Assembly: GCF_963675165.1 (NCBI RefSeq)
Contig: NC_087378.1
Location: 6,071,205 to 6,135,204 of the forward strand
Reading direction: 5' to 3'
DNA from: Halichondria panicea
Taxonomy: Eukaryota > Porifera > Demospongiae > Suberitida > Halichondriidae
DNA: 64,000 nucleotides
The notes under the pieces are model-generated. The model made no database searches. It was not told the origin of the DNA and worked only from the letters and a program-made list of their open reading frames with translations. This document shows, piece after piece, positions 14,658 to 63,950 of the stretch (the first letter of the stretch is position 1; each line of letters opens with the position of its first letter). Made by a program: the position numbers and the translations under genes.

Positions 14658-14734
14658 TTTTTCTTCGCGTAAAAAACATTAAGGATTTCACCGACTGTGC
14701 GATCCTTTACGTGATGCCATGCATCTTCTTTATA
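14658..14734 (-). pseudogene. Fragment related to the giant Death-domain gene
   Basis: On the minus strand, 77 bp match the giant exon at about 55050-55128 with only a handful of mismatches and one base missing. The translation reads YKEDAWHHVKDRTVGEIL, against the identical stretch near residues 1017-1035 of the giant protein. The flanks show no further similarity. It is a DNA-level fragment of that gene or of a close paralogue. The 94-residue open frame around it (14522-14806) is otherwise unrecognised. Confidence 0.7.
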
Positions 14735-15366
14735 GTCATGTGTCAGAGCCTCTGTCAGAGGCTTTTTCATGCTTGTGTTCCTCCTATAGCACCTACAGTG
14801 CAACAACCAAAGAGAGTAGAACTTTTGTTTTTTTACGTTTTTGTCTATATCTTCTAAACTAAATGTGATTGAATCAATTTGAGTGCAGGTACTGAAAGTT
14901 CAACTATTGGCGCTTCCAGTGGACCACCACCTGTTACATCATATGACATCATCATTCCAAAATGGCTGCTAGAATATGTGTACATTAGAAAATATGTTAG
15001 GCATGGAACTATCTTATATGTTTGAGTTAAGGAAATTTGTTGTGCAAGTACTTCATTACCTTGCACATCTTTTGAGCTCCAGCGGAAGTGCTGGCTGTTA
15101 GTAGGTTCTGAGATACACAGAATTTTGTAAATTTTTAGTAGCAAATGTGATGCATTGATTTTTTGATAGTTAAGGTCTGATTTTTGAGGAGCATGTACTA
15201 CAATAGTATACTTTTCATTTGTGCTAACTTACAGGAGCTAGACCAGTCTCTTCTTTGCTAGAGCAGCCCTTCTTGTCAAAAATGGTGATTTTGCTTCATT
15301 TTGCTGCTCTTTGATGATTGATTGCTTATAATTATTATTCCGCTTACTAGTTGAATACCAAAGAGG

Positions 15367-35150: not shown

Positions 35151-35222
35151 TTCTATATATTAGTTTGGCTTTTTCTGTTTTCAGAATTGTTGTTCAGATG
35201 TGTTGACTGCAGCAAAAGAGCC

Positions 35223-36023: not shown

Positions 36024-37010
36024 TTACTGAGTTGAAATGAGAGAATTCATGTGATTATAAGGAAGTGTGCGAGTGCTCAATACTGACAGAATAAGTTCGT
36101 GATGACTGAGGTCAGCAGCCTTCTCGAATGAGTTAGTGAGTGCATTAGTGTTCGCTTTGTGTCCAATCAGTACTAGGACCACTTCGATGTTGTTGAAATA
36201 TGTGGCCACATGTAGAGGAGTCCAGCCATTCTTGTCTTGAGTTTCAGTCGATATCAGATGCGATGCACATACAAGCTCTGCTAATTTTGCATAGTTCTTT
36301 GTAGCTGCTAGATGCAGTAGTGAGCAATATGGAGTATTGTTCTTTAGGAAAGTGTTCAAAGAGTGACATTCATTGTGCTTTCTGTAGTAGTCTTGAACGA
36401 GCTGGATCACAGAATCTTCACTTTCAATCGATGAATCAGCTGTGGATAATTTGGTCACTTGATTTTCTAATTCTCTTCTGAAGTGTGTCAAGTTAGCATC
36501 TAGTAGTAGTCTTGCCATTTCAATGTTCTCAGCGAGATCGATAGGTCTCTCCCCAGCCATGTTCTCTGAGTGTAACATTGTGTCAATATTTTTGCAAGAG
36601 CAGATTATCAGCTCGGCTGCTTTGTAATCGTCCATTGCAGCTGCAACATGGAGTACGTTCCAGTCTTCTGGATCACGGACTGAGACATCTGCTCCAGCAT
36701 TAATTAGCATTTGCAGGGAGTCGAGCTGCCCTTCGAAAATGGCTCTCATGACTGGAGGAAGGCCACTGGGTTCTTTTTCATTCATAGCCTCAGGTCCAAA
36801 GTCTTTCACCAATTGCTTGATTTCTTTTAGGTCTCCATTAGTGACTGCTTGCTGCATTAACACTCCTAGAGGAAAGTGTACTCCTTTCTTGGTCTTATTT
36901 TCTTTGACTGGGACCAGTGACTCAAATGTTAAGAGAACTGGGAGGCTCATTCTCCTCTTGTTCAGCCTTTCAAGGCTAATTCTTTTTGTCTTTGAGTCAG
37001 TGGAAGACAT
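36024..37010 (-). CDS. MYPT/PPP1R27-like ankyrin protein, paralogue D
   Basis: Intronless, 328 residues, the positional partner of paralogue B. The docking motif KGVHF and both ankyrin blocks are intact. The first kinase-type site reads KRIS rather than RRIS; RRMS is kept. About fourteen substitutions and a three-residue indel separate it from B, far more than the four between A and C. It shares DYKAAEL and STRTLP with B. The promoter keeps the TATA box (37071-37079) and a short block like that of A and C. Confidence 0.85.
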   Translation of the reverse strand: MSSTDSKTKRISLERLNKRRMSLPVLLTFESLVPVKENKTKKGVHFPLGVLMQQAVTNGDLKEIKQLVKDFGPEAMNEKEPSGLPPVMRAIFEGQLDSLQMLINAGADVSVRDPEDWNVLHVAAAMDDYKAAELIICSCKNIDTMLHSENMAGERPIDLAENIEMARLLLDANLTHFRRELENQVTKLSTADSSIESEDSVIQLVQDYYRKHNECHSLNTFLKNNTPYCSLLHLAATKNYAKLAELVCASHLISTETQDKNGWTPLHVATYFNNIEVVLVLIGHKANTNALTNSFEKAADLSHHELILSVLSTRTLPYNHMNSLISTQ

Positions 37011-37070
37011 TTTATGTTTTCAAAATAATTTATTGTTGTTCAGATAGATGTTTGCTGCGAAAGAAGAGCC

Positions 37071-41179: not shown

Positions 41180-44100
41180 ATGACGGAAGGCACATGCATA
41201 CGGTTTGTGTTGCAACTTATGTGAGAATTGGTCCCACTCGTTGTGCGCTGGTCTCTCAGAAGAAGAAGCCTATACTGCTCCATTTCGCTGCCATAATTCA
41301 GCCCGTCCATCTATCAGTAGTGCTCTCGTCAATCCACTTGTGTCTGCAATCGAGCAATTGTCAGATAAGATATCGCTCATGGAGGCCACCCAAGGGGAGG
41401 GCGTAGTACACAAAGTTTGCCTGCCCTGATGACTCAGCAATTACTTTAACGCTCCCCCATGAAGATGGCTCATCTGGAAAAGTGTAAAATTATGGGTAAA
41501 AGGAAATGGTGGTTTACCATTCTAGCTCCTCCAGAGATCCTCTCCGTGGTCGAGAACAAGTGGGACTCCCTGGATTGCCCTCCACATTGGCGGCTGCTCT
41601 CTAAGCATTCAGATCTGGCACCCGTTCACCCTCCCCTGAGAGGGGTACTGTGACTCCAGTGTCCCCCCCCCCCCCCCCAGAACAGGATACCATGCCTCCC
41701 CCAGAGCAGGTTGCCCCCTCTGAGGTCCCCAGTGAAAGGGCTATAGATCTATCTGTACTCCAGTCCTCCTCCGCTGATAACCCAGAGATTCCCCGGTCTG
41801 CCATCCCACCCGGAAAACTACCTTTTTTAGAAAGGCCCCCCCTCCCCTTCACGGAGCTAGAGAGAATGGATTAACCCCCCCTCACAACGCACCCTCCACA
41901 CAATTGAACTCTATTCTGGAATTGGCTGTTTATAATATAAGAGGCTTCAAATCAAACACTGATTATATGCTTAACAATCATGACATATTTGCTACTTCTG
42001 AGCACTGGCTCCATGCTTACTACCTCTCCTCCCTGTCAACAGATTTCTCATGCATCTCATCCTCTTCACCTATCCCGGAGGACCTGGTATGATGTCGCCC
42101 TCATTATCTAAGAGGGCAGGGAGGAGTCGCCATCCTCTACAAAATTCAGTTAAGTTTGATACCTCTCAATCGCACCGTATAGTAGGGATGCGGCTGCATA
42201 CCCAACCTCTCCCTATTTGTTTCCTTGGACCCTCTAGGTTAGGTTGCACTGATGAATTTAAGGAATGCCTTGATCACCTAGACTTGCTTATAGGTTTTGA
42301 TAACGAGGTCATTATCCTGGTGGACATAAATGCAGACCCTGGTGTCTATGAACCTCCTAACAAACAAGACAGGATACTTCGCCGATACTTCTCCGCTACC
42401 TTGCTCGGTGGAACTTCGTTTCTGTGCATCTGCACCTCGGCTCTCCACAAAACACTCACACATACGTCTGTGAGGCCATATCTACCATAGACCATATCCT
42501 CTGCCACAATCGCTTCCTGGACGCCTTGGATGAATCGCCTCTAAACACTTCTGACCACCTCCCTCTCTCAGCTAAGGTACCCTGGCAACACTGCCCATCG
42601 TAAACCGGTCCTCTGCTGGTGGCTCAGTTGTTCGGGCAAACTGGTCCAAGCTGTCCCGTTCTGAGTTGAAAGAGAGATACACAGCACCACTCGAGTTTGC
42701 TGTCAGTAAGTTGTCCTCTCCAACTGTACTAGACTCCAACCTGACAAATTTAAGGAAAGAAACATCAAGCAGAGCAAGAAAATATGCAAAACACATTCTC
42801 CCTGGCTGGTCTGCTGCACTCAAATCAGCTCACTTGGATTTAGAACTGACATTCTGTCGCTGGAAATCAGCTGGCAAGCCGCAGTCCCCAACAAACACAA
42901 ATCAAAGAAGTGCTTATTTAGAAAACTGCTCTGCGCATCATCAATCCATCAAAGAAGATTACCTCCTCAATTTCAACAAGGACTCAAAAAAGCTTTTCAG
43001 AGATATCAAAAGATTCTATGGCTCATCTTCATCTTCTAGTCCTGGTAGGATTGTATTTAGGGGCACCTCATACTCTGGTGATACCCTCCTGGATGGCTGG
43101 GCAAACTACTTCGAATCTCTTGGCACCCCCGGGCACAGCAGGCTGTTTGATAATCGTAATAATGATAAAGTAATGGGTAGCTTTCGTGCTCTTCTTGAAA
43201 CCTCCCGTGGTGGTAACATCGTGTTCACACCACTGGACATAGCCACGGCAACAAGAGAGACAAGGCCCCAGGCATTGAATCAGAACACCTATGTTTCTCT
43301 GGACCCCTAGTCCAACAAGAACTTTGTAAAATCTTTAATGCAATGCTTGCCTCCTGCCATATCCCAGAGTTGTTCACCCTAGGATTCGTCACGGCGATCC
43401 CTAAAGGGGCTGACAAAGACCTTCAGAACCCATCCAACTGCAGAGGAATCTCACTCATATCGAATGTCGGGAAACTGTTGGAGAAACTTATATTAGACAA
43501 GTTGTCAGATGATGGTATTGAGGAATCCCCTTCAGGGGGGATTCGAAGCAGGCTATAGCTCGATTTATACTGCATTCATTTTCCAAGAAGCTGTACAATC
43601 TCTCCGTGACATTGGCAATAAGGCATTCTTGGACGTAAAGAAGGCCTTTGACACTGTTTAGCGTGAGGGCCTGTTTGTTAAACTACACGATAAAGGCATT
43701 CATCCGAGAATCTGGCACCTTCTGGTCAACTTGTACACTCGCTGCTTCCTTCTAAAGGGTGAGCGGTCTCGTGTCAAACAGGGTGTTCGGCAGGGTGCAA
43801 TCCTGTCCCCACTGCTCTACTCAGTCTATGTTGACGAGCTTCTGGTTCTACTTGATGAAAGCTGCCTAGGTGCTACGGTCGGCTCGGTTCACTGTCCCTC
43901 TCCAATGTATGCAGACGATCTATCTCTCATAGCGGAGACCCCTGACAAGCTGCAATCTCTACTGGACATTGTTTCAGAGTATGCTAGTGCTTGGAGATAT
44001 GAAATTAACTCATCAAAATCTGCTATCTTAATCCGTGGGGAATCAGCAAAATCTCGCTCCTCTGGTCGCCTAACTCGATTTTTTTCGGTATGCTCTGAGA

Positions 44101-44840
44101 CAATACATGAGGCGGACAGCTACTCCCACTTAGGAATCTTGCGCCTAGTTTCAACCTCTGGCTCGATCAGAATCTCAAATCGCTGCTCTGCAGGGAGGAG
44201 TGCCTTGAATTCGGTGGTGCAAGGTTTGGCCGCCTTCATCCCCACAAACTGTACTCACCTCTCTGCCTCCCTATACGGGTCAGAGCTTTAGTCCCTCACA
44301 AAAACTGACCTAATAATGTTAGAAAGAACACACAGAACAATCCTACGTACAATTCAGGGCCTCCCTACCAGATGTCCCTCGCTAGCCTTATTGGCTCATT
44401 GGGGATCTCCTCTCTGGTATAGACTGTAGGCAACTTTGCTTTGTCAACTCTATTGCATGCATGTCAACAGACGACCTTCCTAAGAGAATACTGAAGCAAA
44501 GGCTGCTCCTGGACACCTCGATTCCAGGCCGCGAAGAGAAAGGCTAGGTCCTCCCTAGCCTCAACCCATGCATTCTTTCATATGGGAAAAGTAAAGACCC
44601 TTTCAAAGCAGCAGTGAAAAAGTCCTTCCTCATTGGACAGTAGCTATATGTCAATCTGGTGGACTCCTGCTCTCAAGTCCAGATATCATCTCATCTTGGG
44701 AAGCCCTCCCAGTTATGGTCGTACTCACTGAAAGACCCTCTAACTTCAGAATTAGACTTCTCACAGGCTGTGACCGCCTTGAACAAGAATATCTAAACTT
44801 TAGACACTTTTTATTTTTATAATATTTTTTGAGCACAAAG
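41180..44840 (+). mobile_element. Degenerate LINE (CR1/L2-like non-LTR retrotransposon)
   Basis: Order on the plus strand: a PHD-type zinc finger (CCNLCENWSHSLCAG, 41205-41290); a conserved ORF1 segment (APPEILSVVENKWDSLDCPP); a proline-rich stretch; then an APE-like endonuclease from about 41904 (NIRGFKSN, SEHWLHAYYLSSL, and at its end IDHILC...NTSDHLPLSA near 42500-42570). A reverse transcriptase follows (about 42650-44290) with KGADKDLQNPSNCRGISLIS, KQGVRQGAILSPLLYSVY and the catalytic YADD at 43908-43919. Many frameshifts and a TAG (43659-43661) in FDTV*REGL show it is dead. PHD plus endonuclease plus RT suggests CR1/L2-type; the exact clade is uncertain. Confidence 0.85.
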
Positions 44841-45299: not shown

Positions 45300-46548
45300 A
45301 TGGAATTCGAAGTGGAAGGTTAGCCGGTATGCAGTTTTATTTACAGCACATACTATACTCAAGCACTAGAGTTTAAGTTGTTGTTAATGATTAATTAATG
45401 TTGTGTACGTGTGTTGTCCGCATGTATAGATACAGAGCTTTCAAAGGCTGATCTGAAGGTTATATATAATGAAGTATATAATGAAAGAGCTGAGTGGAAA
45501 TTTATTGGCCTTGAGCTTAATCTCACTTCGGGAGACATTGATGCTATTGAACGGAGGCCGTCTCACAATCGTGACATTGACAAAGATCGACTCATGGAAG
45601 TTCTGCAAATTTGGCTCAGTAAAGAGAGAGCAACATGGAGACAACTGATTAGGGCCCTTCGCTCTCAAACTGTTGACAAAGAAAAAAAAGCTCGGACACT
45701 GGAGGAAAAGTATTGTCCACAAGGTAGGCCACCCACTTTAGGTTACATACTGTGTGTCTTATTTATAATGATATGCAGATGCACTCAAAACTGAGGAGGT
45801 AAAAGAGAGAACTGGAAGGAAACGAAAACGCAGTGTTGCCATGGAGCAGCAGTTGAGTAGTGATGTGAGAATCATTAGAAATGAGTATAAGGTCTTGCAA
45901 ACATGGACAAGATTATCACTAAAAAATAGAAAGACGCCTCCTTCAGAGCTGATTGCCCGTCTATCATCATATCGAGAGTATCCTGCTGCAATGAAGAAAG
46001 ATGATAAGTTGCTTGCTGATCGTTATAATGATCTCGAGAAAGCTGAGAATATCGACAAAATATTTATAATTGTGGCACCGTTCTGGTCATTCCTTGATTT
46101 TGACATTCTTGAGGACATCATCAACGCCTTTGGAATAGATGAAGATAAACTTAAGTTGAAGAATTATAAGCTTAAGCTCAAAGAGATTCTCAGTTCCTGG
46201 AAAGTTGAATCACTTCAAAGTCGTTGTCTGCATGTAGATGCTGATGATAATGATGACAAGGGGTGTCAAAGATTACTTTGCCTTAAAGTAGACACTCATA
46301 CAATGTCTACTTACCGATACGTAAAGGATACCATTGCAAATATTTTAGAAGTAGATATGTTTGCTTTGCGAGTGAAAACAGTTGAAGAGGGTTGTATCAA
46401 ATTGGTTTTCTGCTGTCCTAAACTGTCCATTATACATTTGCTTCCTCTATCGCAAAGTCGCAACGATCAGATAAAACAAATAATTCCTCGGATCCTTAAG
46501 ATGACGACAATGGATGATAAGACAGCGCTGGAATCAATCATTTTTCAG
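45300..46548 (+). CDS. Giant Death-domain protein, exons 1-3 (N-terminus)
   Basis: Exon 1 is 45300-45318 (MEFEVE, ATG in good context CAAATGG), exon 2 is 45430-45723 and exon 3 is 45779-46548. All introns are GT-AG (111 and 55 bp), and phases 1, 1, 0 fit. Exon 2 encodes a Death domain (residues about 8-100: ELSKADLKVIYNEV, WKFIGLELNLTSGDIDAIE, LQIWLSKERATWRQLIRALR). This is a six-helix fold that pairs with other Death domains in apoptotic and innate immune signalling. Exon 3 (105-361) begins with a basic KRKR segment. It includes FWSFLDFDILEDIINAFGID, a helical module that I recall after Death domains in sponge proteins. The frame continues through exon 4 (50544-50613) into the giant exon (53154-62935). 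With no signal peptide or membrane segment, a cytosolic adaptor or receptor is the simplest view. Confidence 0.75.
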
Positions 46549-46639
46549 GTAACTATTTTGCATCATTTGAGTGTGTCTCTTGTGGGGGAAAGTACATATT
46601 TACGTGTCCTAAGCTGCTCAGCTTGTTTTAGACATTAAA

Positions 46640-47130
46640 TTGAAAATTGAAAGCATAATCTATCTATATCAGTTTGTACTAACCTAATACGGGGTTTTCC
46701 CAGGGAATTTCTGCATTGGTTTATTATCTATGCATGGTGGGTAGATATAATAACTCAATAATTGGCCTGGACCTTATCATGTGACCTCAAATGACATCAA
46801 TGCACTGAATTTGCAGTCATTCTTGTACGCATGTCCAGTCCTCCAGTTATAGGTTGTAATTAGGGCTTTAGATTTTTCACGTATTTCACTCATTTACATA
46901 TCCGCAAGAAAAGCCCAGATCTGGAAACTGACTGCACAGCTTGTTTATTACCCCGTGCTGCGTGTGCGTGTGCGTGTGCGTGCACGTGCGCGCACTGAAT
47001 GAAGGATTGGTATGTGTGTGACTGACACTGTCAGTTTGTGTGTGTGTGTGGACACAAAAGTGAGCTGTTTGAGCGAACTAGACACTTTCATAGACTGCTT
47101 TAACTTTTAATGAGACAGTGGGTGAAAAAT
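46640..47130. other. Intron 3 sequence with simple repeats
   Basis: This part of the proposed 4-kb intron 3 carries half of a hairpin repeat at about 46755-46850. It resembles one arm of the inverted repeat at 63132-63267 (ATGACATCAATGCACTGAA). A GTGCGTGTGCGTG microsatellite lies at about 46960-47000. No exon was seen. Confidence 0.5.
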
Positions 47131-47134
47131 ATTA

Positions 47135-47378
47135 GGCCGTATAGCGTGAAATTTTCGAGGGGCTTAATTTTCGCGGATTTCATGGGTTAGAATTCTACAC
47201 GAAAATTAAGCCCACGAAAATTGTTCTTTAATAAGAATTACCTGCTATAGAACATGCAAAGATTTAAAGGCGTGGCTTCCGGTAAGCAGTCATTCCGCGA
47301 ACATTGTGCAACAAAATGGCTTTTAGAGGCCAATCCGCGAAATATATAAGTGCCTCGAAAATTTCGCACTATACGGTA
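47135..47378. mobile_element. MITE, TACCGTATAG family, in intron 3
   Basis: The ends CCGTATAGCGTGAAATTTTC and its inverse, GAAAATTTCGCACTATACGG, are about 244 bp apart. The interior includes CGTGGCTTCCGG and CATGCAAAG units shared with the cluster at 63042-63708. Confidence 0.75.
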
Positions 47379-47885
47379 GTTCAAAAAGCGAAAAAAAACA
47401 CTGTTTTGTTGTTTTATAGATTCACGATTATTCCCCCATAATGTTAAGGTCATTGCGGTAAAAGTTATCGTATCAGTTCATCCAGTGCAATATATGGCAT
47501 GTTGCACGAGGGCGCCTGCAATAACTAACTTATTGCCCAATGACGACTCGTCTGACTGGTCATATAAGGTGTTTTGAAGGAATTTAGTGTATTCGTTAGT
47601 TTGTTGAATTCCATAGTAAATTTTTAGGTTTTCTTATACCATAAAAGTAGTAGCCTATAAAAGGGACCAAATGAAGGTGGGATGGTGGGGCATAAGTCCC
47701 AACTGGATATCTCTTATGGTTACGGTCAACGGTTTACTCATTAATTATTCATGAGCTAGATCTAGTGATCTTTTCCAGCTAGAATGAGCTGGAAGTCCAG
47801 CTGAAACGCAGTAGTCATTTCATGGCTCGAATAGACATTTTTACTATAAAGCTTAGGGTACAGTCTACTGTAGCTTCACTATATG

Positions 47886-48050
47886 CAGGGTGGGTCGAAG
47901 AGATATTTCGAAAAAAGGCTACTGAAAGCTCACAAGAGGCTGTTTTCCTTGGCTCTGGCCGCCATTTTAAGTGGAGTTAAGTCTACATATTATTATTTTG
48001 TGAGAGTTTGTTGGCCTGGAAAGAAAAAAACGCTTCGACCCGCCCTCCAG
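47886..48050. mobile_element. Short inverted-repeat element, GGGYGGGTCGAAG ends
   Basis: CAGGGTGGGTCGAAG on the left faces CTTCGACCCGCCCT on the right; 12 of 13 terminal bases match. Total length is about 165 bp and no target duplication is clear. An open frame across it is not supported. Confidence 0.5.
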
Positions 48051-48366
48051 AATGGTAAGAAGCATCATATAAGAGCAAGAACACAGAGCTAGAAGTGTTT
48101 TTAGAAGTTTAAATGACTACTAGTTTTGTGTTGTTTCTAGTAACTTAATGATCGCTCAGAGCTTCCACTGGAAAATGTTTTGAAGATTGATACTTGTCAT
48201 ACAGGATAATACACCAATATATTTATCATGTGTGTGCTTTAAATTTTTATCATGGCATTTATAGTTTCACAAAAATCATTATAAGAAAATCATGAATATT
48301 CATGAGCAAACTGTTTACCGCAACCTTAAAGAAATCTACTGCATTTACACACAGTGCAAGTGCATA

Positions 48367-48570
48367 TACCGTATAGAGGGTATATTTCGAGGGTATAAAT
48401 GTTCGTGGTTTTCGCGGATTAGGCATGAACCGCAAACATTTATGAATTTAATATTTCATGCATGCATGCTGCAAAAAAGGCGCTATTCCATGAAAATTAA
48501 ATCCGCGAAAACCTTTCTAAAGGCACATCCGCGAAAATTTATACCCTCGAAATATACCCGCTATACGGTA
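48367..48570. mobile_element. MITE, TACCGTATAG family, long terminal repeats
   Basis: The left end TACCGTATAGAGGGTATATT continues TCGAGGGTATAAAT. The right end is its inverse with few changes, giving arms of more than 45 bp in a 204-bp element. It is probably the least decayed family member here. It lies in intron 3 of the giant gene. Confidence 0.85.
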
Positions 48571-49395
48571 ATCCAGTGCATTAGTGCCATATAATGCAGT
48601 GCAATATATGGTAGCCATGGCAGTGATGCAACATGCCATATACTGAGCACTCACTGGGCAACAATAATCAAACAAATGTTCACATGCATGAATATTGTCA
48701 CGCATTTTGTCTGTCTGACTGACTGAGTAAATAACGTACATTCTGCAAAGTAACAGTTGACCATGGGTGTGGCTGTGACATGCTGATTTAGTGCAGTTTT
48801 ACAAGTTTGAAACCTCTTTTCTTCAGAATTCCATTGTTGTCAGTTATAATTATGCTAATGCTATAACCATAGGCTTCCATACACTTGCAACACTATATAT
48901 ACACCTCCCTTATACTGCTCTTCAGGGTAGATCAGATTCTGTGTACCTGGCAGGGGGGTTAGTAGAAAGGGGCAAAGCTCCGTACGAGGGTGGCGGAGGC
49001 GAAATTTCTTAGCTTTTTACAATTTGCTCACAATTTGACCTTTGAACTTTCATATTAATGAGTGAATATATACTGAATACGAAAAAGTTAATACAAAAAA
49101 CTCGTTCTAATCAACAAAAGGATTGTATACTGTATAGATGTTATATGTAGATTCATGCACTCTTGGTACATTGAAAGAATCACAATGCCTGCACTGAGAG
49201 TGAGAGGAGGTAAGGCTGCTTCCTTGCAGCTAGCTGAAAAAGTCTGAGATCTACTCCATGTTGCAGCAGCATGCACAATAGCCTTCACAAGGCCTAGGAA
49301 GAGAGGTCTGGGATCGAGGCTACAAAACATTGCACAAGGAGCTGACTCAGCAACAGCAATAGTTGACCTATGCACTTTAAATTAGTATGTAAGTC

Positions 49396-49738
49396 TACCG
49401 TAAGACCTCGATTTAAAGCGACACTTTTTAATAATTACGAAGCCAGAGGTCGCTTCTTTAAATTTGGAGGTTGAAAAATTATATTGAAGTCCTGGTGTCG
49501 CATATTTAGAGGGTCGCTAGAGGTAACTTTACAGAGTCCTTGCCTCGATTTCAGGCCGCTTAAAAACACAGTGGGCTACAATCGAGGCTAGGGAGTGGCT
49601 ACATTTACCTCTATTTAGAACGCAACATTAAAAAATAATTGTCAACGCAGCTGTCGCTACTTTTAGAGGTCAGAAAATTGCTGAAGCTCCTGGGTGTCGT
49701 ATATTTGGAGGGTCGCCTTAAATCGAGGTCTTACGGTA
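49396..49738. mobile_element. MITE, TACCGTAAGACCTCG family
   Basis: The terminal inverted repeats are TACCGTAAGACCTCGATTTA then AAGCGAC, against TACCGTAAGACCTCGATTTA then AGGCGAC. The length is 343 bp and TA ends suggest a TA target duplication. Its first eight bases, TACCGTAA, closely resemble the TACCGTATAG family. A mini-palindrome (49541-49590) is inserted in it. Confidence 0.85.
49541..49590. mobile_element. Mini-palindromic element, older copy
   Basis: TGCCTCGATTTCAGGCCGCT...GTGGGCTACAATCGAGGCTA keeps the family ends, but the arms have diverged and no target duplication is clear. It lies within the MITE at 49396-49738. A further weak family member is at about 49273-49316. Confidence 0.5.
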
Positions 49739-50543
49739 GCTAGCTTAGTAGATCCAGCTAGCTAGCTAGCCTAGATCCTTATACTCTTAGTAGCTATACC
49801 TGGCTGTTGTCTAGCATCTCTTAAGTCAGTGAGTCTACATGCAAATGCATAAGTAACAAGGTTGGTGGCAAAATTGTTGTAACCTCAGACTAGCAATACA
49901 TAGGCAAAAAGGGGGGGGCTTCAGCCCCTCAAAACCAGCCCCTGGATCCGCCCGCGCCCCTGCCTGGTTCTCATCATTCTATCGACCAACAGAAATCAGC
50001 AACATAATAAAGGATCGTTCCTTGCCTCTAAAAAAGTTTCTTGAAAGTGATTGCTTCTTGAAGTTCCCCTACTCTGCAAACAAAGGGGATCTTTCCAAAT
50101 AGAATGTGAAAATTACTACGATTGGCCATGGAAAGCACTAAAAACATCATTCCTTACAACGTCATCAACACAACATCAGCACATTTACCATCAATATAAT
50201 ATAATATATTAATAGACAGTTTATTGTCTATAAACCAGCTTAAAAACTGCACCATAATTATACTCATTGTTTTACACGTAAATGAAGTTGTAACGATTTG
50301 ACGTACGGCTCTCTCTCGCGCTTGCTTATGTCCATGCTTTTTGGTGCTTTCCCGTTGGTAATTGTCACATGTAAATGCATGTGTTTTTGGACTTATCATA
50401 ATATATTTCTATGTACGTTTTGTACATGCAGTGATATATACTGTGTATTTGAAGGGACAGTTCAGAATGCGTATGAGACCTATTTATACCACATGCAGAT
50501 TTTTTTTTATCTTCTGTAATGCATTGTGTTTATATGAATACAG

Positions 50544-50613
50544 GGATCAGAAATTGAATTGCTGCTGCATATTGTTGATGGTGACTGTGGCTTGACTATC
50601 CTTGTACAGCATG
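50544..50613 (+). CDS. Giant Death-domain protein, exon 4
   Basis: A 70-bp exon has an acceptor (AATACAG) at its left and a donor (G|GTGAGC) at its right. It encodes GSEIELLLHIVDGDCGLTIL then VQH. It enters in phase 0, matching the end of exon 3 (ATT TTT CAG). It leaves in phase 1 with CAT G, matching the GT CAA that opens the giant exon, so the junction codon is GGT. Residues 362-384 of the model. Confidence 0.65.
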
Positions 50614-50914
50614 GTGAGCAGTCACAGAAGTATTAAAATGTTTATGACCACATTATGCCTCGATGTGCATGTGCAAGCGAGGTATACGGTAGTGTGTGTG
50701 TGTGTGTGTGTGCACGCGCACGCGCTCAATGATCAATGAAGTGCAAGTGAGAGGCTTCTAGTCATGTTTTCTTGGATTTTAATTCGTGCAATTGCAAAAT
50801 AATGCTTGGTTCTCGAGTTATGCTAGTTTTGCTTACTTGAAATTGCATTGCAGCCTTTTCAGACGTAGAAAAACTTGTCCATGGAGTGTTGCTACTCAAT
50901 TTAGTAGTTAGATC

Positions 50915-51364
50915 CAGTGGCGGATCCAGGGGGAGATCCCAGGGTGCCACGGATCCCCCTTTTCAGACTAAGCTATTGTGGCTTTACTATATACAGCTAC
51001 CAGCTAGCTATTTATCAGTTTTGTAGCTATTGTAATTTGATTCAATGATTGTACCTGTTGTTCTGATGCATCAACTGCCAAAGGAGTGTTTAGGTTAGCC
51101 TAGGTTAGCTAGTTGACTGTTCTTGGCAGCTAGCTAGCTCTAGCTAGCTCTACGCTAGCCTCGAGACCAGGCCGATTAAAATACGTATTTTAATCGGCCT
51201 GGATTCGAGGCTAGCTCTACGCAAGTCTATTATGGGATTTCCCCTGGCTGAGTATGGGATTTTCCCTAGTCACGTGTGACCGGAAGTGGGCATTACCCCA
51301 AAAATTTCGCGCTGCACGCTCGTAGTTTGGAACCCCCCTTTCATTTTTCCTGGGTCCGCCACTG
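50915..51364. mobile_element. hAT-like non-autonomous element
   Basis: The ends are CAGTGGCGGATCCAGG and, inverted, CAGTGGCGGACCCAGG, typical of hAT-type termini. A 5-bp direct repeat AGATC flanks it (50910-50914 and 51365-51369). Joining the flanks with one AGATC restores the repeat X sequence seen at 13435. Classic hAT duplications are 8 bp, so the assignment rests on the termini. It carries no transposase and contains the mini-palindrome at 51156-51213. Confidence 0.85.
51156..51213. mobile_element. Mini-palindromic element, 58 bp, with exact 9-bp target duplication
   Basis: The arms TAGCCTCGAGACCAGGCCGA and then TTAAAATAC face their inverse with only two mismatched positions and no loop. 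GCTCTACGC flanks it on both sides (51147-51155 and 51214-51222). This is the clearest family member. Confidence 0.85.
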
Positions 51365-51655
51365 AGATCTGCACTAGAATGCTAGCTATTTATAGCTGGC
51401 CTGCAAGAGTGAGAAGAAAGCTGCAAATGCGCTGATGCAGCCATTAATTTTAGACTTGGACTTTTGGCATCGGTCGTTTTTAACAACAATCATGGTCGAT
51501 CATTACCCACTCTCTGTAATTGTGGAGTGCTAATTAATGCAAAAAATGTTCATCACGATAGTCACTTTGTGTGTATAAAAGCTATTAGTAGCTTTATGTT
51601 ATGTAGCTTTGACACTTCCACCGGGATATCAGCACCTGCGATACTTTCATTATTT

Positions 51656-52858
51656 TCAGGGTCAGATTAAATAGGTCAAGTCCACGCTATTCAGAGATCC
51701 AAAGGCCTGAGGCTCTCTGAATAGCATGGCCCTAGGGACTATTGGCTGAGGCCTATGTAACGAAAGCACTATGGAGCCCCATAGTGTCGAGCCATAGTTC
51801 TGCGTTTACAGCATGGATAGCCTTCACACAACAAGTTATTAGTTTTTAACAATGGCAGATTTTGATGTTAAAGCTTCATGCGTCCTTTTCTCGAGGTACA
51901 TATTTACAGCTGAAGTGATCCTGTACCAGGAACGATGGAATTTCATTTCTCATGTTACTTGCTACTTAGCCAGCTTCTCCATGCTTCATACATACTACTA
52001 TTTTATTGTATTCAAGTAAACAGCCGAAAGTTAGCACTTCAGTACTCTAGTAATTATAGCTGAGAAACCGCAACTCAAAGCAAAAGGTTGATATAGGTGT
52101 AGTATACAAACTTAAAGAGAAATTACGTGAGGACGTCATCAAAATAATGCGCAGTGCTTGGGCCTCCATCTGGCCTATGTATTACTGTATTCTACTGAGA
52201 TTACACCCACCTTAATTGCATGCTACAAAGCAGCTACAGGTGGGATGGGCTTAATTTCGAAAACAGTAGTTTTGTCTTGAAATTAAGCCCACCCACCGCC
52301 TCGAAGTTACACCCACTCATTACAAAACTAAGTCTGCATCCATCAATATAGTATTACAACAATACAATAAAGTATAGCTAGGGTACAAACAAGTCATGAG
52401 TCTCACTGTCAGAGTTTTCAACTTGTCTCTTATACTTGCATGCAAATATAGGAGCAATATACTTATTGATAGCTATATTCAGAACTAACCAGCTTACACA
52501 AGAAATTGCTAAATCTTTTCTTGACAACTGCTCATTGACAAATGCATCACTGCCTGCCTGGTGGGCGTATTAATGCAGGCCGGAGCTTTCACTGGGGTGG
52601 GCGTAATTTCGGACGTGCATGGGCCTATCTATTCTCGGTAGAGTAGTAGTCTCAATCTTTTTGCAGTAACATCGACTGTTGCCATCTTTTTTAGTAGTCT
52701 CAGTACGATCGTGTGCGAGGTTTGTATGGCCTACTTAGAAGAACTCTAACATTGACAGGTTGCAGCTAGTATATTTAGACCTTCCAGTGACCAATCTCGT
52801 TGCTTATGATGAATTGAGACTTGCTATTGTGACTTAATGTAGACCTGATACTATATAC
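51656..52858. other. Intron 4 sequence, nothing identified
   Basis: No gene or clear element was found. A short ATG frame at 51852 ending before a GTACAT donor-like site has the wrong phase to join the giant exon. TTCGAAATTAAGCCCACC-like motifs near 52260 recall the TACCGTATAG MITE interior but lack ends. Confidence 0.4.
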
Positions 52859-53072
52859 CTTAGGTGACATATTTTTGCGGATATTAATTTCTGCTATTTC
52901 TGCTAAAATCATGTACTTGCAGATAATTTGAAAATTCAATGAATCTCATTAAAACTACTTGCGAATACAATATAACATTAATTTCGTAACTTAAGCAGAA
53001 TTTAGTACCAGCGAAATGAGCTAAACAGTGAAATTGCAGACAAATCTACCTGTGAAAATATGTCACCCTAAG
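52859..53072. mobile_element. MITE, CTTAGGTGACATATTTT ends
   Basis: The left end CTTAGGTGACATATTTTTGC faces the inverse, CTTAGGGTGACATATTTTCA. The length is 214 bp, just before the giant exon. The interior is AT-rich and non-coding. Confidence 0.7.
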
Positions 53073-53153
53073 ATAATTATATAGTTATGTTATATTAATT
53101 ATGATCGTAGTAGATGGTGATCATCCATGCAAATATTATTTATCAACATGCAG

Positions 53154-56100
53154 GTCAAAATCTATTTGTTTATGATACGGGATATAGAACAACTAACCAC
53201 AGCAACTGCCTGGAAAAGGCACTCCAGGAGCTAATTGAATTCCGGTCCGTTACTGTTAGTGGGGCTTTCTTTTCAACTTCACAGCCTAACCTCAAATCCA
53301 TCTTCAAAAACAAAGTTATTGAGGAGATATCAGTTATTACCCCTGCAAACATTAATCCTAGTTCATGCCTCGAGAGTACATTTAGTTCAGAATTGAGTCG
53401 ACTCCCACTAGATCATCCTGACGTCTTATTTGAAGAGTGTGACCTTCTTTCTGGACCGAGTCTTTCTTTCCAATTCAATAGGAAACATCCCTTAGTAAAA
53501 CATCGGGTATCGTATCAAACAGACACGGGTGACAAGGAGGGAGTGTCCGACACAATAGATGTGGACAGGAGTGGAAATGATATAGCAATGCAGATCAAAC
53601 ACTATTGCTCTGTTCTTGTCACCGGTGAAACACCGATAGCTAAACTTCACAATCTAGATGAAGAGTTTTTCAGTGTTTTCGTAGTTCCGCATCAAGACAG
53701 TGACCAGTGTGTATCATTCTTTCCTGAAGAAGCACGGAAGTTACTATGGAACCCCAGTTCTCTGCAAGATTCAGCTCTACACCTAGCCATTTATCATAAA
53801 AGAAATAGATTTATCCCAATATTAGGCGAACTCAAAAATAAACACCTTGGTGATAAGGGAGAATCCTTTCGTAAAGACTATCTAACTATATGTCATCCTG
53901 AAACTGACCTAAAGGCAATCTTACAAGATGCAGACGCCAAACTTAGTCTATTTTCAGAGTACAGTGACAAGTTCTATTTAAATTGGTACAAAAAAAACAA
54001 ACCTGGGATTTTTTTACAGGTAGCAAAGTCTGTTTCAGAAGAGGAGCGTAGACAGTACAAACGAATAGTTTTTCTTCGAAACAGCCTTGCATGGGCCCAT
54101 TTTTACAAGCATGTGAATGCCGAGGTATATTTGTTGTCTGGTGAGGATCTTAGGCAAGGTCATCAATTGGAAGTTCTTAACGGTATTCTCATAGCCAGAT
54201 TTTGGAAAAAAGCTCCTTGTTCAGTGGTTATCACTGACAGCTTGCCATTGCCAATGGATGAAATCATCCAGAGAGATGTGCGAAAGCTTGTCTTTCCCAA
54301 TCAAACTCAGCATAATGTACGTATGGGATTCATTGAAAAACGTTTGATGAGGTCTACTCCTTTCTTCACTATCAATCCATGCTCCCATGTCCAACATTAT
54401 GAATCAGAATACTGTGACTACACCATTTCTGTCGACCCCTTGGCTCACATAGTGAGTGGTGTCGGCGTTGAACCAACGATAAACCTTGTTAGAGATGCGA
54501 TAGACATTTGTGATGACATCAGCACCCAAAAATCCAATGAGATGGTAGGCCATATCACTTATAGCTACAAACCTCCACCATCAAGTGCAGCTTCAAGTGG
54601 GCATATTAATCGTCAACCCTTGGGTACATACATGAATGGTATTGGTTACAAAAAGAAGCATTCTTATAATATGACTAAAGTCTTAAACTGCCTCATTGGC
54701 CCTACATTAGTTCAGCAACTCAGGAAAATTCGTTTGAAAGAAGTACCTGAACTTATTCCAGCCTTGCTTACTCAAACGGCAGCTGGTAACTCAACGTTTG
54801 CTTTATCTCCCACTGAATTTTCTGCCTCTGATGCGGATGTTGTGGTTCATATTAATAAGCGCCAGCCACTACAAGTTGGAAATAAGGCAGTGTATGAAGC
54901 AAAATTTATTGTGAAAAAAGCTAAGACAATGCAACTGGAGTTTGTGTTAGTAGCTAAAGTCAATTCCAAAGAGTTGAAAATTATCATTTCTACAAACTTA
55001 GAACTGAAGGGAACCTGTGGAACCTCTGTAGGTGATTACCTTTATAACACTTGCTATAAAGAAGATGCATGGCATCATGTAAAGGATCGCACAGTTGGTG
55101 AAATCCTCTATGTCTTTTTACGCGAAGAAAACGCTATCTCAGCAATTCAGTCTCTACCACTGTTCCTCTCGTCCCCCCTGATTAAGTGCAAGATAAACCA
55201 CTATCTAACCACAGTTCTTGTCGAGTCACAGGTGCTGCAAGAGGCTCATATATATGTGAACTTGTTTGAGCTTGAACCAGTCTCTATCAACAACCACAAG
55301 CTTTGCATTAAGATAGAATCACTAGCCATGCATATTTTAAAGCTTGACATAGATCAACAAATGATCAAAGTCGAAGGAAATTGCAGTTTAAACAAACACC
55401 TCCTGAAATTCACTTGCTATAGTACGCCAGCTACAGACTCACAAAAGCATCTGAAATGTGTTTTTGTTGAAACCATGCCAGCGAAGGAGATGTTTGAACT
55501 GTTTGGAATCCGTGATTCTCCCTCTTCCCTGCAACATCCTTCACATGTAACTGCTCTGAATAATCACACCAAATACAGTGGAGGCTTTGTACTGTCTCAG
55601 ATTTTCGGGAACACAATCGAGTCACGGCTCACTTCATTGTTTTTTTATGTTAAATCCGGAACAAGCATTGAAAGCGTACTGCCACCCACGTGTACCCTAA
55701 GTATTCCTATGGAGGTTGAAGTAAAGACAATTGTACATTTCCCATCAGCAAAAACTCCAATATTAGGGCTTGAAGCTGTGTTCAATTCAGAAATTGATAT
55801 AGCTATTTTTACTGCTGCAAAAACATGTAAAACCTTGTTAAAATGCTGTTTACATATCGTACCATCAATTGCGGATGGAACTTACTCTTCAGAGTTAGTG
55901 GTTAGACAGCGTGTCAGTGAACGTGATCCACAAGAAATCTGTGGCTTTTCAGTTCTAGCAATTGTGTCAGCTCTTGATAGTGATCTGGGAAAGAATATTG
56001 AAGACCAGATCAAGGCGATTCCCAAAATTGGTGACCAGGTTTGCAAAACCTTGGCACTCAGAAAGATTGTATTTAAGCTATCGAATCGGCAAATAATACT

Positions 56101-59100
56101 TTGTGAGGTACATGGTTCTCTAAGTAAACTTGATATCATAGATGGAACGCTATCTATTGATAAGTGTACAATAAACCTATCATTTTCAAGTGAAGGATTG
56201 TGTATAGTTTGCAGTGGGAATATAAAGCTAATCAAGCAATACGTTTACTCAGTTCCTCGGTTTAGTTTTCCAACACTCAAGCAAAAAGGAAAATTGAGCT
56301 TTGAAACTTACGATAGTAACTTGATCTTCAAAGATTTCATGAAGGAATTTGGCTGGCTTACTCCAAGTGTCACAAAAAACCTGGTTCTGGATAAGATTCT
56401 GGACACTCCTATCAGAAAAGTAATTTTGTGCTTTTATTTTACTGACAAACTTTGCATTACAGATGCCAGTATTAGTGTCTTCAAGAAACAAATAGATGTT
56501 GGACTGATCGAATTAGATGGTGTTGACCTAGAAGTCATTGTAAAGCTTGTGGAGGATAAGTACATCACCACATTTTCTCTTCAAGGTTTTATTTCTGAAG
56601 CTCTTTATACTAAACTAGACTATGATCCCACCAATAAACTTCTGTCAGGACAAGTAAAAGTGATATTTGCTAGGACTGTTCAAGCTCTCAGTGTGCTACA
56701 ACTATTTTCAACGTCTATAGATTCGTATCAGAACATGAAGAAGGCTCTTTCAGAGGAATTCATGGATATATTGTCATCAGACTTAAGAATCACTGCAAGA
56801 AACCATGAGAAACCAGGGCTTACAGCTTCTCTTGGTGTCAGTATTAGTCTACCTTCTAAGCATTTAAGAGAATACTCGCTTCGATATCTCAATTTAGAGA
56901 CAAAAGACGCACTGAAAATTAATTGTGAAAGCACGTATGTCCTGAACAATTTTCATTTTGAGTACACTGAGGAGCTAACAAGTAAAGATTCTCCTTCAGA
57001 TGCTCATCTTTCTATGACACTCCACAAGCTCAATACCGAGGAGAATATGTCTTTGTATTTTAATTTCTCGGAAAAAATTTACTTGACAGCAAAAGTGGCT
57101 GCTGGACCTTGCGGCGGCCTCTTAAAATTATGTTCTGCTATTGACTTTGCCCAAGCCCCTACTCCAGAGTTTCCTGAGTTTGATGTGAGATTACCTGCTG
57201 TATTTGAAATTGAATTAATGTCTGGCTTAATTACATTCAGAAAACAGCCCAGTTTTCAGCCTGCTGCATTTAATATTAACATCTTGATTAAGGAATGGCT
57301 ATTGTTTGCCGAACCAGAAGTTTTAGTGCACGATATCAGTCTGAAGGCAACATGGGAATCTGGTAGTCGCTCCCAACTCAGTTTCACAGACTGTTCTTTG
57401 ATATTTCTTAGTCATAAATTCATCCTCAGTGGCAGTCTAACAACTAAAGATGTCTTTATTAAAGGACATTGCACTGCAGATTCTGAAACACAGTCCCCAA
57501 CTCAACTTCAGCACATACTAGATAGGTACACTCCTTTGTCCGCAAAAAAACCCTTTGTTCCAACTAACATTGATTTGCCTCCCATGCTGGTTGAACTTAA
57601 GAAGTTAATTATTCATATTCAAGAACCAAGTGAACAGTTTTGTATGATTATGGTAGTGATGAGTCCTTCTTGGAAACTGCAGTTTGGCCCTTATGAAATC
57701 CCTGTTTGTGATCTCAGTGGAACTTTAGAGTGGGAAAAATTGGATACTAGGACAAACTACAAAGCCTACATTGATGGTATTGCTGAGCTGTTTAGTATTC
57801 AAGTTGATGTAAAAATGCTGCTTGAGGAGGAAGACAAGGACTCCATAGTTTTCTCTACAGTCGAGTATCCACACTGCCTTCATTACAGTCAAGCCATTGA
57901 CCATTTACTGGGCATCAAAGATTCAGCTGAAATAATTCCATACAACCAATATGATCCCAGTACCTCAGGCCTGTCAGAGTTGGTTCCCTCTACAATGCAG
58001 AGCATATGTTTCACAGAAGCTAAAGTTGCCTTTAATCTCGTACAAAAACAGTTCTTTATCAGCAGTAAAGTGGAGGGATGGGGAACTGGGTCCATTTTCA
58101 TGGGCTATCTTATCAGTGACACGGACTCTATAGACTATGTCGCTAGTTTGTCCCTTGAGAGTGACGTCTCATTTGGCAGGTTATCTGAATCTTTAACTTT
58201 TGTTGACGAATTGGTAAAGTTGCAAACAGCAAACGCACTTGTTTCTTCTGCTGAATTTGGCCATTTATCAGACATTACCACCAAATTCCACCATTCGTTT
58301 TCTAGGTCTTGGGTCAAAGAGCTCCTTCTTCAGTTGCCTTTCTATGAATCCAAGCTTGAATGTGAATTAAAACTAGCAGAGTATGAAGTTCAGGTTGGGA
58401 CAACGATCTATGCAAGCATTGATATTAACCTGTCACAAGGAATCATTACCAGATTGTTACAGCTTGGAGATACATCAGTGCCACATAGCCTTTCAATTGT
58501 GACATTTATTGGTCAATCAACAACTAAAACAGATATCAATATCAATGCTTGGATTCCTAGAATTTTACTGTTTGGAATGCTCGAATTCTCTGATATTCAT
58601 TTGCTGTATAGAGTTAAGGCTGCCACTAAGTTTGAGCTCACAGGGGCAGTTGCTCTTAATGTTAACCTTGATGACACTGACGATCAGATATTTAAATTTG
58701 ATGGTACACTTTCTGTTAATCCTGATCATGCTGAATTCAGTACTGTGAGCTATGGCAATTCCTTATCTCACCCCTGTCGAATCAATGTTGTGGCAAAAGA
58801 ACTACATCTTGCACTCAAACTGTACCTAAATAAAGGATACCCGAATTTGTATGTGAGAGGGAAGGTGGAAATTGCCGAAACGAAGCTCACCTGTATATTC
58901 ATTTTTGTTGGTATTGTTTTCAAAGTGTTCAAAATTTCCTTGAAACAAGGTCTAAAACTCTCTGCTCTACTCAGCTGCTGCTCCATTGAATGGCCTCTTA
59001 GCCTAGATATTGTCCTAAAAAAAGGAAAGTTCTACTATGCTGCTTCACAAATCACTTTAGATGAAGATGGAGTAACATCTGCTTATGAGCGTGGTTACCG

Positions 59101-62100
59101 TATAGAAGCGACTGTCACATTTTTCAAACTTGATTTTGAAATACAAAATGGTATTGTAATGTTTGATGAACACAATGTTATTTTTGATGCAAGGGCCAAA
59201 AGAACAATTAATCTTGATTTTGCAAAACTAACCGGGGAACAAGAGGATCACCTTGAAAGTGAAGAAATTAAACGAAAGTATGAAGTTGAACACAGACATA
59301 AGGGTCCCCTTTTATCATATAAACAGAAAACCCTTGTCTTAACTCACGGATTAGAAATTCTTGATATTCCTTGCTGCGATGGTCAATTAAAGTGTATGCC
59401 TGGAAGTGGGACAATGAAAGGTGAAATCAAATGCCCGAAATTTCTTTGGATTAGTGAACCTTTGATTCAGCTAGAATGGAGCCAAAGCAATGGGTTACAT
59501 ATACTAGAGTTACAACTTAATGGAGATGTCCCAGGGTTTTCTTTGCTTAAATCAATTGAAGATGTTGCTAAAGTCACTGCAAACAGTCTTTCAGGTAAGT
59601 TGTTATGGAATTGGAAGCTCTGCTTGAAAACGTGTAATTACAACAAGCAAGAAGAATGTCTAGTTCGTTTCATCCTATCTGGCGTTATCAAGATCTCTAT
59701 CATAGGGTTGCTCGAAGAAATAACATTTAATGTGCCAGATATGTTCATCTCCTTGCCCAGGATTTCAATCGAAGGCTTCCCTATGTCATACTTACTTGGT
59801 CAGTATATCTTAAAAGCTTTGAAGAATAACAGTGGCCACTTTATTGAACCATTACTGGCTTTAATTGACGAAGCAAAGCATTTTTCCAAGTCATTTACAT
59901 CGATACGGGAGAGTATTAAGGGGACAAATGAGATATTGGACATTGTAACGAAAAAAGTAGACACAGTTTCAACAGACGATACTGAAACAGACAATACGCA
60001 AAAAGGCGCTTTTGGGAATAACAAGGTTTGGAGAGGAATGTGGAGTGTCCCTGGTGGCTCAGTATTTATTGTGGATTTTGTAAATAGAATTGTACTTGGT
60101 TATATTCCTGGAGGAACAGCAGGAAACTCCAAAACTAAGGCAGAAAAGTCTACGCCAGAGCAATACATTATAGAGGAATTCGGACCCATTGTGACAGTTA
60201 ATGCAATTAGTAGTATGGCACATGAGATTCACAAGTATCTCAAGTCTTGTGTTGATGCTCAAGAATATAAAACTGAAGAACAACAAGAGGCGAGTGATGT
60301 CAAGCAGAAAATAGAGAATGATTTGGCAGTGCTAAAATCGAAAGCGAATACTCTTTCAAAGACTCTGACCATTGTAGCTGACAATGTATTGACTGTGACA
60401 GATGTTTACTTGAGTGTCATTGTGAAAGCTCAAAACAAATGTGCTATCGTAATGACGTGGTTTACTTACAACCCTGAAGAAGGTACCTTTTATACCAAAG
60501 ACAAAGGAGGCATTGAGTATGATGTGGAGATTTCTGCCATTACCATCCAACCTCGTACCTCTCAAGTTGTTCTTCTACGCAATGACACCTTCACTCTTAA
60601 AGATGTAAAGCATATGACAAAAAAATCGTCTTATAGTATGCTTCAATCAGGCATGGAACACTTTACTGAACAAAGTAAGGATTCAGACGCTGCTAGCAAG
60701 CAAAAACAGAGTACTAGGTCCAAGCCAGAGAAATGCATACAACTAGTGATTCCTATTAAGCCCAAAGTTTTGGAGCAAACAGTGTGCTTTAATGTTGGCA
60801 TTCAACCAAAAGTAAAATTTAAAGTGAAGATGTTACAACCTGATAAAATAGTTCAAAATGCTTTTAAAAAAGATGAACTGTTTAGTAATACATGGATGAA
60901 GGACACTAAGAAGCAAATTGAGGCAAGTGGTCGATTAACAGATGTTACGATTGAAGGAAAAAAGGTGTCTAAGCAACATATAATCAACAAAGATTCTGAG
61001 TCTGAAGTAGTTACATTTACAGCTAAATGTGACCACAAGAAGGAGAGCTTAAAAGTTTCAGGTACTTTAAATCCAGTACATAGCGCAGCATCGTATATAG
61101 TACAATTAGTGGATGAAACTGACTCAACAGTCATTGTCAAGCAGAGTCGCGTGTTTCCTCCCCAACTAAAGTACCAACTTGAACCATCGAGCACTCACTT
61201 TCCAGAAACTTCCTCTGGTCCATACTGTGTTTCTGCTCTTGCTCTTAGTGATAAGCACAAAGCATTATCTCCTTTCACAGTCTCAGAATTGAGGATAGTC
61301 CGGCATGATCCACCTGAAATTCTGACTGTTACACTACCCAAATTGGATTTGTTCGATACAGAAGTTGTCCTGTTGAAATGGTTGTATCCATCATCAGAGG
61401 TAAGTCTTATAGATGGATCTCAGTTAATATTTCCGGAGCCTGGAAATCAGTATTTCTTCACCGTCACCATAGTTGGCTTTGCGGTAAAGCCGCGAAAACT
61501 GAACGAAGAGGTTAAAAATCTTGACAAACGTAAAAAAGAGTTTACATTCTCTGAAAAGGTGAATTTATGTAAGGATACTCGATGGGTTAAATATCAATTT
61601 AACTTAGTCGATATCCTTAAAAAGTATAGCCCCAAACTAAAAGGTGGACTTATATTTCAATGCCAAATAGTAGCTAATGGTATTTCAAAACTTCAAAGTA
61701 TGCCAAAGTCTTTCCCGGAGTTTATCTTGCTTGCACCTCCAAAATACTTGAAAGTTTTGACTCGTACACAAAAAGCTGGACTTCATATTAGCTGGGAATA
61801 TGGTGCTCATGCTATTGGCTACAGATTAGAGTTAGTAACTACAAAGTCTCAAAAGTTGGAGTTCTCTAAAGTGCTGAAATGTAGAGCTGGAAGGAATGGT
61901 CAAACTGTTCTCTACAAAAATGATTTCATGAATGTTCCTACTAGTGTTGATAATGGTTACCAGTTGCAAATGTATTCTCTTGGATTGGGTCAAGACCTCA
62001 TTCGGTGCCTAAAACCCACCATTGCAGAAGGATATACATTACATGTAATGTCAGCAGAGCTTCATTACTTGCAGGAGTTGAACAAAGTGCGAGTTACATT

Positions 62101-62935
62101 TAAGCCATTGAATACTAGCACAGCTCGGTTATACACTGTAGAATTATACCAAGGCTTAAATGTTACGGATGAGCTATGTGCTCTGTCAATTGAAAAAGTC
62201 GAGGCTAAAAAGGGCTTTAATAATGAAATTTCTTCAGATTTTGCTCTCAGCAAGTTTCATCAAAAGCTGCATTCAGGAAGTCTGATCACAGCTTGGATTC
62301 ATTGCACGATTAAACCTTTTGGTAGAAAGACTCACATATACGTTGGATTACCACAAGAAGAGATACTTGTGTTACACTCCCCAAAGCTTAAAGCTTCATT
62401 TACCTACCACTCTGATGGTTCTATACATGAAATGAAGCTTGTCTGGTCAGATGTACCAGGGTCTCATGGATATGAGTATGGGCTTTGTCTCCTAAATGTA
62501 AATGATAGCATTATCTTAAAGCAAGAAACAGATGCCATTAAAGTTGTCATTGACTTTGCCCAGGAAAGGTACAGATGCATACTAGAACAGCTTTTGCGTA
62601 AAAGCAATGGTTCTTGTCCACAATTTCGAGGTTACGTATCAGCTCTTGGACAACCTGACCAATTAGTAGTAGGAGCTGTTACCATAGATGTGCAAATGAT
62701 TAACTACATAATTCCTTCTTCGGGAAGGTGTATTGTCTTCACAACAACTCAACTACAGAAAATGTGGACCTGGTACACTACCCATCCTGTTGATCATGTT
62801 TTTTCCTTACCCATATTACGACAACAGTATCTTATGTATCCTAGTGGAAACCCGTTTCCAAAGATTCCAATCCCGTCAAAGCTCAACGAAAAGTTTTGGA
62901 GAAGAGGATACCAGCTGTTCCAAAATGGTATATAG
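53154..62935 (+). CDS. Giant Death-domain protein, exon 5 (9.8-kb exon)
   Basis: A single uninterrupted frame encodes residues 385-3644 of the model. The acceptor CAACATGCAG ends at 53153 and the phase matches exon 4. An ATG at 53114 could open the frame, but its 13 extra codons are intronic in the spliced model. I recognise no named family. Residues 385 to about 750 are mixed helix and strand. About 950-2600 look beta-rich, with recurring blocks of the form LxGxxxI...IDLPPMLVELKKLIIHI (near 1860) and DLSGTLEWEKL, which may be a diverged repeat. The stretch 2755-2800 is helical and possibly coiled-coil. From about 3100 to 3560 there are fibronectin-III-like modules (GLHISWEYGAHAIGYRLEL near 3260, MKLVWSDVPGSHGYEYGL near 3480). 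No signal peptide or convincing membrane segment was found. A short piece is repeated at 14658-14734. Function unknown; the N-terminal Death domain suggests signalling. Confidence 0.9.
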
Positions 62936-63750: not shown

Positions 63751-63950
63751 AATCGGATTGTCTCTATGCACGAGATGTCTTAATGGTGAATGGTCTAACG
63801 ACATCCAAAAAGTCTCTAATGGAGTGGAAGAAAATTGACCCATTTGCAAAGCCATTTGGAACTGTTACCCGAAAAAAGATTGAATACAAAAAGGACAATC
63901 TTGAATGCTTTGGTGTTAGTGAATTACGTATTTTACTATATACAAGGTTG
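63751..63950 (+). CDS. Possible exon of a next gene, at window edge
   Basis: After an acceptor-like ATTATACAG, an open frame reads SDCLYARDVLMVNGLTTSKK, then MEWKKIDPFAKPFGTVTRKK and further, without a stop to the window end. Possible donors are AAG|GTTGGT (63946) or TTG|GTAACT (63950). The composition is protein-like, but I do not recognise the family. It could belong to a gene continuing to the right. Confidence 0.4.

Follow-up and report, generated by a model that had tools for sequence, protein, structure and literature searches.

Does a Death domain at one end of a sponge locus belong to the same protein as a 9.8-kb exon further downstream, and what would such a protein do? The question is raised by a stretch of 64,000 nucleotides from Halichondria panicea (contig NC_087378.1, positions 6,071,205 to 6,135,204), here called the window. 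Its forward strand holds a gene that runs past the window end. The explanation that we consider probable, with some reserve, is that this eight-exon gene encodes an immune adaptor of the Death/TRADD-N type whose giant body is non-catalytic and acts as a sensor or scaffold. In this explanation, the protein consists successively of a Death domain, a TRADD-N-like unit, a degenerate metallo-beta-lactamase (MBL) domain that is split by intron 4, a beta-rich body of approximately 1600 residues and FN3-like C-terminal parts (Table 1).

The exon chain

A sequence-only reading of the window had joined five exons with GT-AG borders and compatible phases into a protein of 3644 residues. The joining itself stands, as the chain of 10,935 nt has 0 internal stops and all its inner borders are GT-AG. 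Moreover, NCBI's existing prediction for the gene, LOC135331030 ("uncharacterized protein", isoform X2), contains the same joins of exons 2, 3, 4 and 5. The corresponding protein, P0001, which is encoded on the same contig as the window (C2), is identical to residues 62-3642 of the five-exon translation (3581 residues). This identity spans joins 2/3, 3/4 and 4/5, upholding the proposed fusion of the Death-domain exon to the 9.8-kb exon. As a complete protein, however, the 3644-residue product does not hold. In the NCBI model, exon 5 is left at a phase-1 donor at 62927 and the chain resumes at 63751-63946, followed by two more exons beyond the window. The giant exon is therefore internal, and the gene end placed at 62935, with its terminal 'GI*', is intronic. 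The full chain counts eight exons. Counted from exon 1, the protein has 3960 residues, and the stop lies past the window end at approximately 64861.

Exon 1 is absent from P0001, which begins at Met62, within exon 2, and looks like the product of an alternative 5′ end. The donor of exon 1 has the top score among nine candidates within 900 bp. Of six tandem paralogues, three (L002-L004) share an upstream first exon that has this phase and ends in ...DEIE/AAGGTT; its donor is not top-scoring in L002 and is tied in L003. The remaining three paralogues were not recognised by the first-exon search pattern.

Table 1. Features of the giant Death-domain gene, in positions of the window
Feature	Position	Strand	Basis
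Exon 1 (MEFEVE, phase-1 donor)	45300..45318	+	Donor score; paralogues L002-L004; outside P0001
Exon 2	45430..45723	+	GT-AG, frame; 3′ part within P0001
Death domain	45483..45665	+	PF00531; genome search finds the same place
Exon 3, helical block and TRADD-N-like alpha/beta unit	45779..46548	+	Genome matches, alignment
TRADD-N-like unit with G-C (uS-type) turn motif	46267..46509	+	Alignment against the description in PMC8195603
Exon 4, reading as MBL first strand (IELLLHIVDGDCGLTILVQHG)	50544..50613	+	Within P0001; intron place and phase shared with five MBL genes
Exon 5, giant, 9774 nt, phase-1 donor G/GTATAT	53154..62927	+	P0001 join
Rest of degenerate MBL (ComEC-type), with insertion	53154..54388, end approximate	+	hhalign
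Metal-motif site, lost here: STSQ, then 4-residue gap (relatives: HxHxDH or HxDxDH)	53273..53284	+	
VPHQDS, altered ComEC-type VPHHGS motif	53684..53701	+	
Beta-rich body	54821..59743, limits approximate	+	Structure models of parts
FN3/Ig-like region	60368..60994	+	
Exon 6, missed by the sequence-only reading	63751..63946	+	100% match to P0001 residues 3582-3647; exon-chain reconstruction
Exon 7	about 64006-64082, past window end	+	P0001 chain
Exon 8	about 64179-64861, past window end	+	P0001 chain

An MBL-derived domain across intron 4

The phase match of the small exon 4 on both sides had been taken as the key support for the chain. This support turns out to be weak, as intron 3 contains 168 AG-open-GT stretches with a length of 30-199 nt that are equally compatible with the phases of exon 4. 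Exon 4 also fails a strict donor/pyrimidine filter that four other stretches of intron 3 pass. We regard it as real because of the NCBI model and because of its content, since its translation can be read as the opening strand of an MBL domain of ComEC type that is completed in exon 5. Exon 4 reads IELLLHIVDGDCGLTILVQ, and the first strand in MBL genes of the same genome resembles VHLINVGQGDAILLEV. In these genes, the first strand is an exon of its own, followed by an intron and subsequently by (K)K/R-x-LIDGG or a similar sequence. Judged by the best splice sites, a phase-1 intron occupies the place of intron 4 in all five MBL genes considered (L016, L017, L026, L027 and L028), and four of these introns interrupt a Gly codon, like intron 4 of the giant gene (G/GT).

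As judged by sequence, the giant body begins with a ComEC-type MBL domain that lacks its metal motif. The description of the effector region as uncharacterised thus does not apply to its start; the beta-rich body beyond has no assigned fold. A profile of eight sequences, built from seven relatives and the beginning of exon 5, aligns to the N-terminus of relative P0025 over 442 columns with an hhalign E-value of 1.8e-39, and P0025 itself scores above the Pfam Lactamase_B cut-off (E 6.3e-7). The same profile matches two stand-alone Halichondria MBLs (E 4.6e-8). Together with P0025 it matches the jacalin giants described below (E 5.2e-11, vs 0.043 for the best of 20 shuffled-column controls). All hhalign E-values given here are those for a single comparison.

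The metal motif was surveyed in 33 sequences, i.e., the window protein and P0002-P0033, seven of which do not cover the site. The motif is lost in all 17 covering members of the group to which the window protein belongs, with a common 4-residue gap. It is kept in nine sequences, as HxHxDH in P0025, P0030 and P0031 and as HxDxDH in P0026-P0029, P0032 and P0033; the latter form is also found in the PDB ComEC chain matched by P0025. Besides the metal motif, the window protein has TGE in place of TGD and VPHQDS in place of VPHHGS.

Two sets of relatives include versions of the domain that keep the metal motif. The first set, P0026-P0033, consists of giants of 4069-4344 residues with an MBL-type N-terminus and jacalin domains. 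PF01419 is present in the precomputed annotation of all eight, and three C-terminal jacalin lectin domains were found in each of the three that were scanned, P0026 (E 7.1e-65), P0031 and P0033. The MBL-type N-terminus carries both the metal motif and VPHHGS in P0026, as it does in P0025. By hhalign, the N-terminus of these giants matches the stand-alone Halichondria MBLs with an E-value of 6.2e-23 and P0025 with an E-value of 4.1e-20. The body that comes next is of the kind found in the window protein, and P0026 shows 23% identity to this body across 71% of a 1221-residue query. Unlike these giants, the window protein has lost the metal motif, and it gave no jacalin match. P0026 and P0027 are probably encoded on one contig.

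The second set comprises the stand-alone MBL genes of the genome. In those that were read, a GQGD-type first strand, DxG, the metal motif, TGD and VPHHGS are all present, the metal motif being kept in L017, L027 and L028. L017 and L016 resemble Avs1a (E 3.8e-15 and 1.4e-10, respectively), the PADLOC LmuA model of Lamassu (E 2.7e-17 and 9.2e-15), 6A-MBL (E 6.9e-5 and 4.5e-8) and ComEC/Rec2 (E 1.2e-7 and 1.1e-4), with scores far below the curated cut-offs where such cut-offs exist. For Avs1a, the two genes score 55.5 and 40.5 bits vs an NCBIfam cut-off of 420 bits, making them homologous to this family, not members of it. The best PDB sequence matches are ComEC chains (L016 to 9ic4, E 1.9e-4; P0025 to 9ic4, E 0.013). 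L016 matches at 22 places in the genome, 20 of which lie at 5.33-5.59 Mb of contig C4 (C4:5335447-5590348); in this cluster, seven places contain stops and some places are pieces of one gene. A stand-alone MBL is also located at C13:284.4-285.65 kb. The cluster also includes L026, in which an MBL with the motif HxNxDH is fused to a tail that by eye resembles an OTU-type protease, with no OTU match in Pfam.

The head and the giant body

The Death domain is as recognisable as had been claimed: PF00531 matches exon 2 with an E-value of 3.6e-7 and 30.6 bits, above the curated cut-off of 22.6. The genome contains at least 150 Death domains (all of the 150 that were scored, out of 503 candidates). 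One of these, at C2:2639535-2639720, lies within an open frame of 3127 residues, another giant Death frame of the genome.

The module encoded by exon 3 matches at 115 of 138 scored places in the genome, own window included, some of which are pieces of one gene. At ten places, the window among them, the identity amounts to at least 41% along almost the full module, and nine of the ten are clustered on C4. In its last third, the module has a G-C or G-S turn, which is EEGC here and EPGC or EDGS in five aligned paralogues. The u-S/C motif of the NCOA6 clade of TRADD-N, which is situated in the turn that connects strands 2 and 3, is thereby present, with strands assigned by eye. The label is kept at 'TRADD-N-like' because TRADD-N is confirmed by neither Pfam nor PDB profiles. 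A genome profile search with TRADD-N matched nowhere, its controls included.

For the modelled parts of the beta-rich body, Foldseek gives no match at E<=0.001, and the body has no known fold assigned to it. ApoB100 appears in the Foldseek list at ranks 3, 5 and 6 with E-values of 0.19-0.42, which are not significant. Three stretches of the protein pass a hydropathy of 1.6, with a peak of 2.22, and two of them lie in structure model B, where they are modelled as strands. A dispersed copy of approximately 96 bp of the giant exon, with 66% protein identity to query residues 633-664, is located approximately 40 kb upstream (window 14642-14737, reverse strand).

Function and comparison with known systems

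The protein is probably cytosolic, a location favoured by the Death and TRADD-N-like head. This head would oligomerise and recruit partners of the Death-fold type. The body, which derives from what was once an enzyme fold, may serve as a ligand-binding sensor or scaffold that controls the head, e.g., one that binds nucleic acid and does not cleave it. With the metal site lost, a sensor or scaffold is likelier than an executioner. The earlier suggestion of a signalling or immune scaffold thus remains the best guess. As to its being of a new kind, the combination of Death, TRADD-N and a variable C-terminus has already been published for sponges. According to excerpts of Kaur et al. (2021; PMC8195603), which describe TRADD-N with its uS/GC turn motif, the sponge Amphimedon has 357 NCOA6-clade TRADD-N proteins, and most of their architectures consist of a Death-like domain, TRADD-N and a variable C-terminus. 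The protein described here is similar in its N-terminal Death domain, its unit with a uS/GC turn and its variable C-terminus. The lineage-specific expansion is also large in both cases, with 357 proteins there vs 115 places of the exon-3 module here. Unlike the Amphimedon C-termini named in section 10 of that paper, i.e., ankyrin, SH3-LRR, kinase, MATH, SH2, PDZ, caspase, PNPase and HD, the C-terminal part here is an MBL-derived giant body. The word 'lactamase' is absent from the main text of PMC8195603 in a word-start search that left its figures and source data aside. In the open-licence PMC literature, no paper was found that substantively brings together Death, MBL and sponge. The gene is a public prediction without an assigned function, and it varies a known theme by its MBL-derived C-terminus.

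Several observations weigh against this explanation. In P0001, the sole NCBI isoform examined, the Death domain is largely missing and Pfam finds no match to it, and the exon chain as a whole is supported by the genome sequence and the NCBI prediction. A Death head on a giant body has been seen in Halichondria panicea only, in a comparison that does not extend to the upstream exons of the relatives. For the TRADD-N-like unit, there is no NCOA6_TRADD-N (PF13820) match in Pfam up to an E-value of 10 and no TRADD structure in the PDB sequence search. Four of the five MBL genes also hold an intron candidate of another phase in the searched range. The Lactamase_B cut-off is passed by P0025 and not by P0026, P0031 or P0033, while the three scanned MBL genes of the genome, L016 and L017 among them, also stay below it. 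The MBL stretch, modelled without exon 4, has a pLDDT below 50, too low for the fold to be judged, and no MBL match. Lastly, the loss of the motifs other than the metal motif is incomplete within the group, as TGD is retained in P0006, P0011, P0014 and P0018 and VPHH in P0009.

On a larger scale, animals may have recruited a bacterial-type anti-phage or ComEC-like nuclease whose active site was subsequently killed and which now forms the DNA- or ligand-sensing end of an inflammasome-like Death/TRADD-N platform; this scenario is put forward only tentatively. By sequence, the MBL domain belongs to the same fold family as the ComEC-type nucleases discussed in excerpts of PMC12799240, such as Avs1a of AVAST, HamM of Hachiman, and the Lamassu and Canu MBLs. 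According to the same excerpts, Hachiman is one of the bacterial systems in which related MBLs function as DNases. Unlike in these nucleases, the metal motif is lost, a long insertion is present and the domain is flanked by a Death head and a giant body.

Of the other explanations, the one that survives best is that the body binds lipids or sugars, either as an ApoB-like beta sheet or as a lectin-like surface protein, and that immunity is not its main role. The jacalin domains of the distant giants, the ApoB100 ranks, the FN3-like region and the hydrophobic stretches all fit this idea, which we nevertheless find rather unlikely, given that every Foldseek match is non-significant, that jacalin is missing from the window protein, that two of the three hydrophobic stretches are modelled as strands and that the head points to the cytosol. 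It is quite improbable that the MBL has kept nuclease or hydrolase activity and that the protein is an executioner triggered by the Death head. The resemblance of the two stand-alone MBLs to enzymes that are DNases in bacteria and the motifs retained by five group members speak for activity, but in the window protein itself the metal motif is deleted and the two other motifs are altered, and the deletion is common to the 17 covering members of the group. Least probable of all are two separate genes, a Death gene ending in intron 3 and a giant frame starting unspliced at an ATG at 53114: the frame is indeed open from this Met, exon 3 can be read through to a stop at 46638 and chance exons abound in intron 3, but the NCBI model joins both parts and the 53114 start would miss the MBL first strand, supplied by exon 4 and encoded by a separate exon in all five MBL genes.

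The immune adaptor with a non-catalytic body would connect the modular Death/TRADD-N heads known from sponges with the ComEC-type MBLs, enzymes that serve bacteria in their defence against phages. The pseudo-enzyme version appears conserved through a family of giant proteins, and one genome contains both live-looking and dead MBL versions, allowing their comparison. For annotation, the locus illustrates that such a giant exon can be internal rather than an orphan gene.

In the remainder of the window, labels were given by eye. Directly upstream of the gene, at 42576-44291 on the forward strand, there are fragments resembling a retroelement reverse transcriptase (YADD). Four near-alike ankyrin-type frames, arranged as two pairs, are located on the reverse strand at 9613-10632, 11613-12659, 34164-35159 and 36024-37019, and a forward-strand frame at 17227-18105 resembles the N-terminal part of a cytochrome P450.

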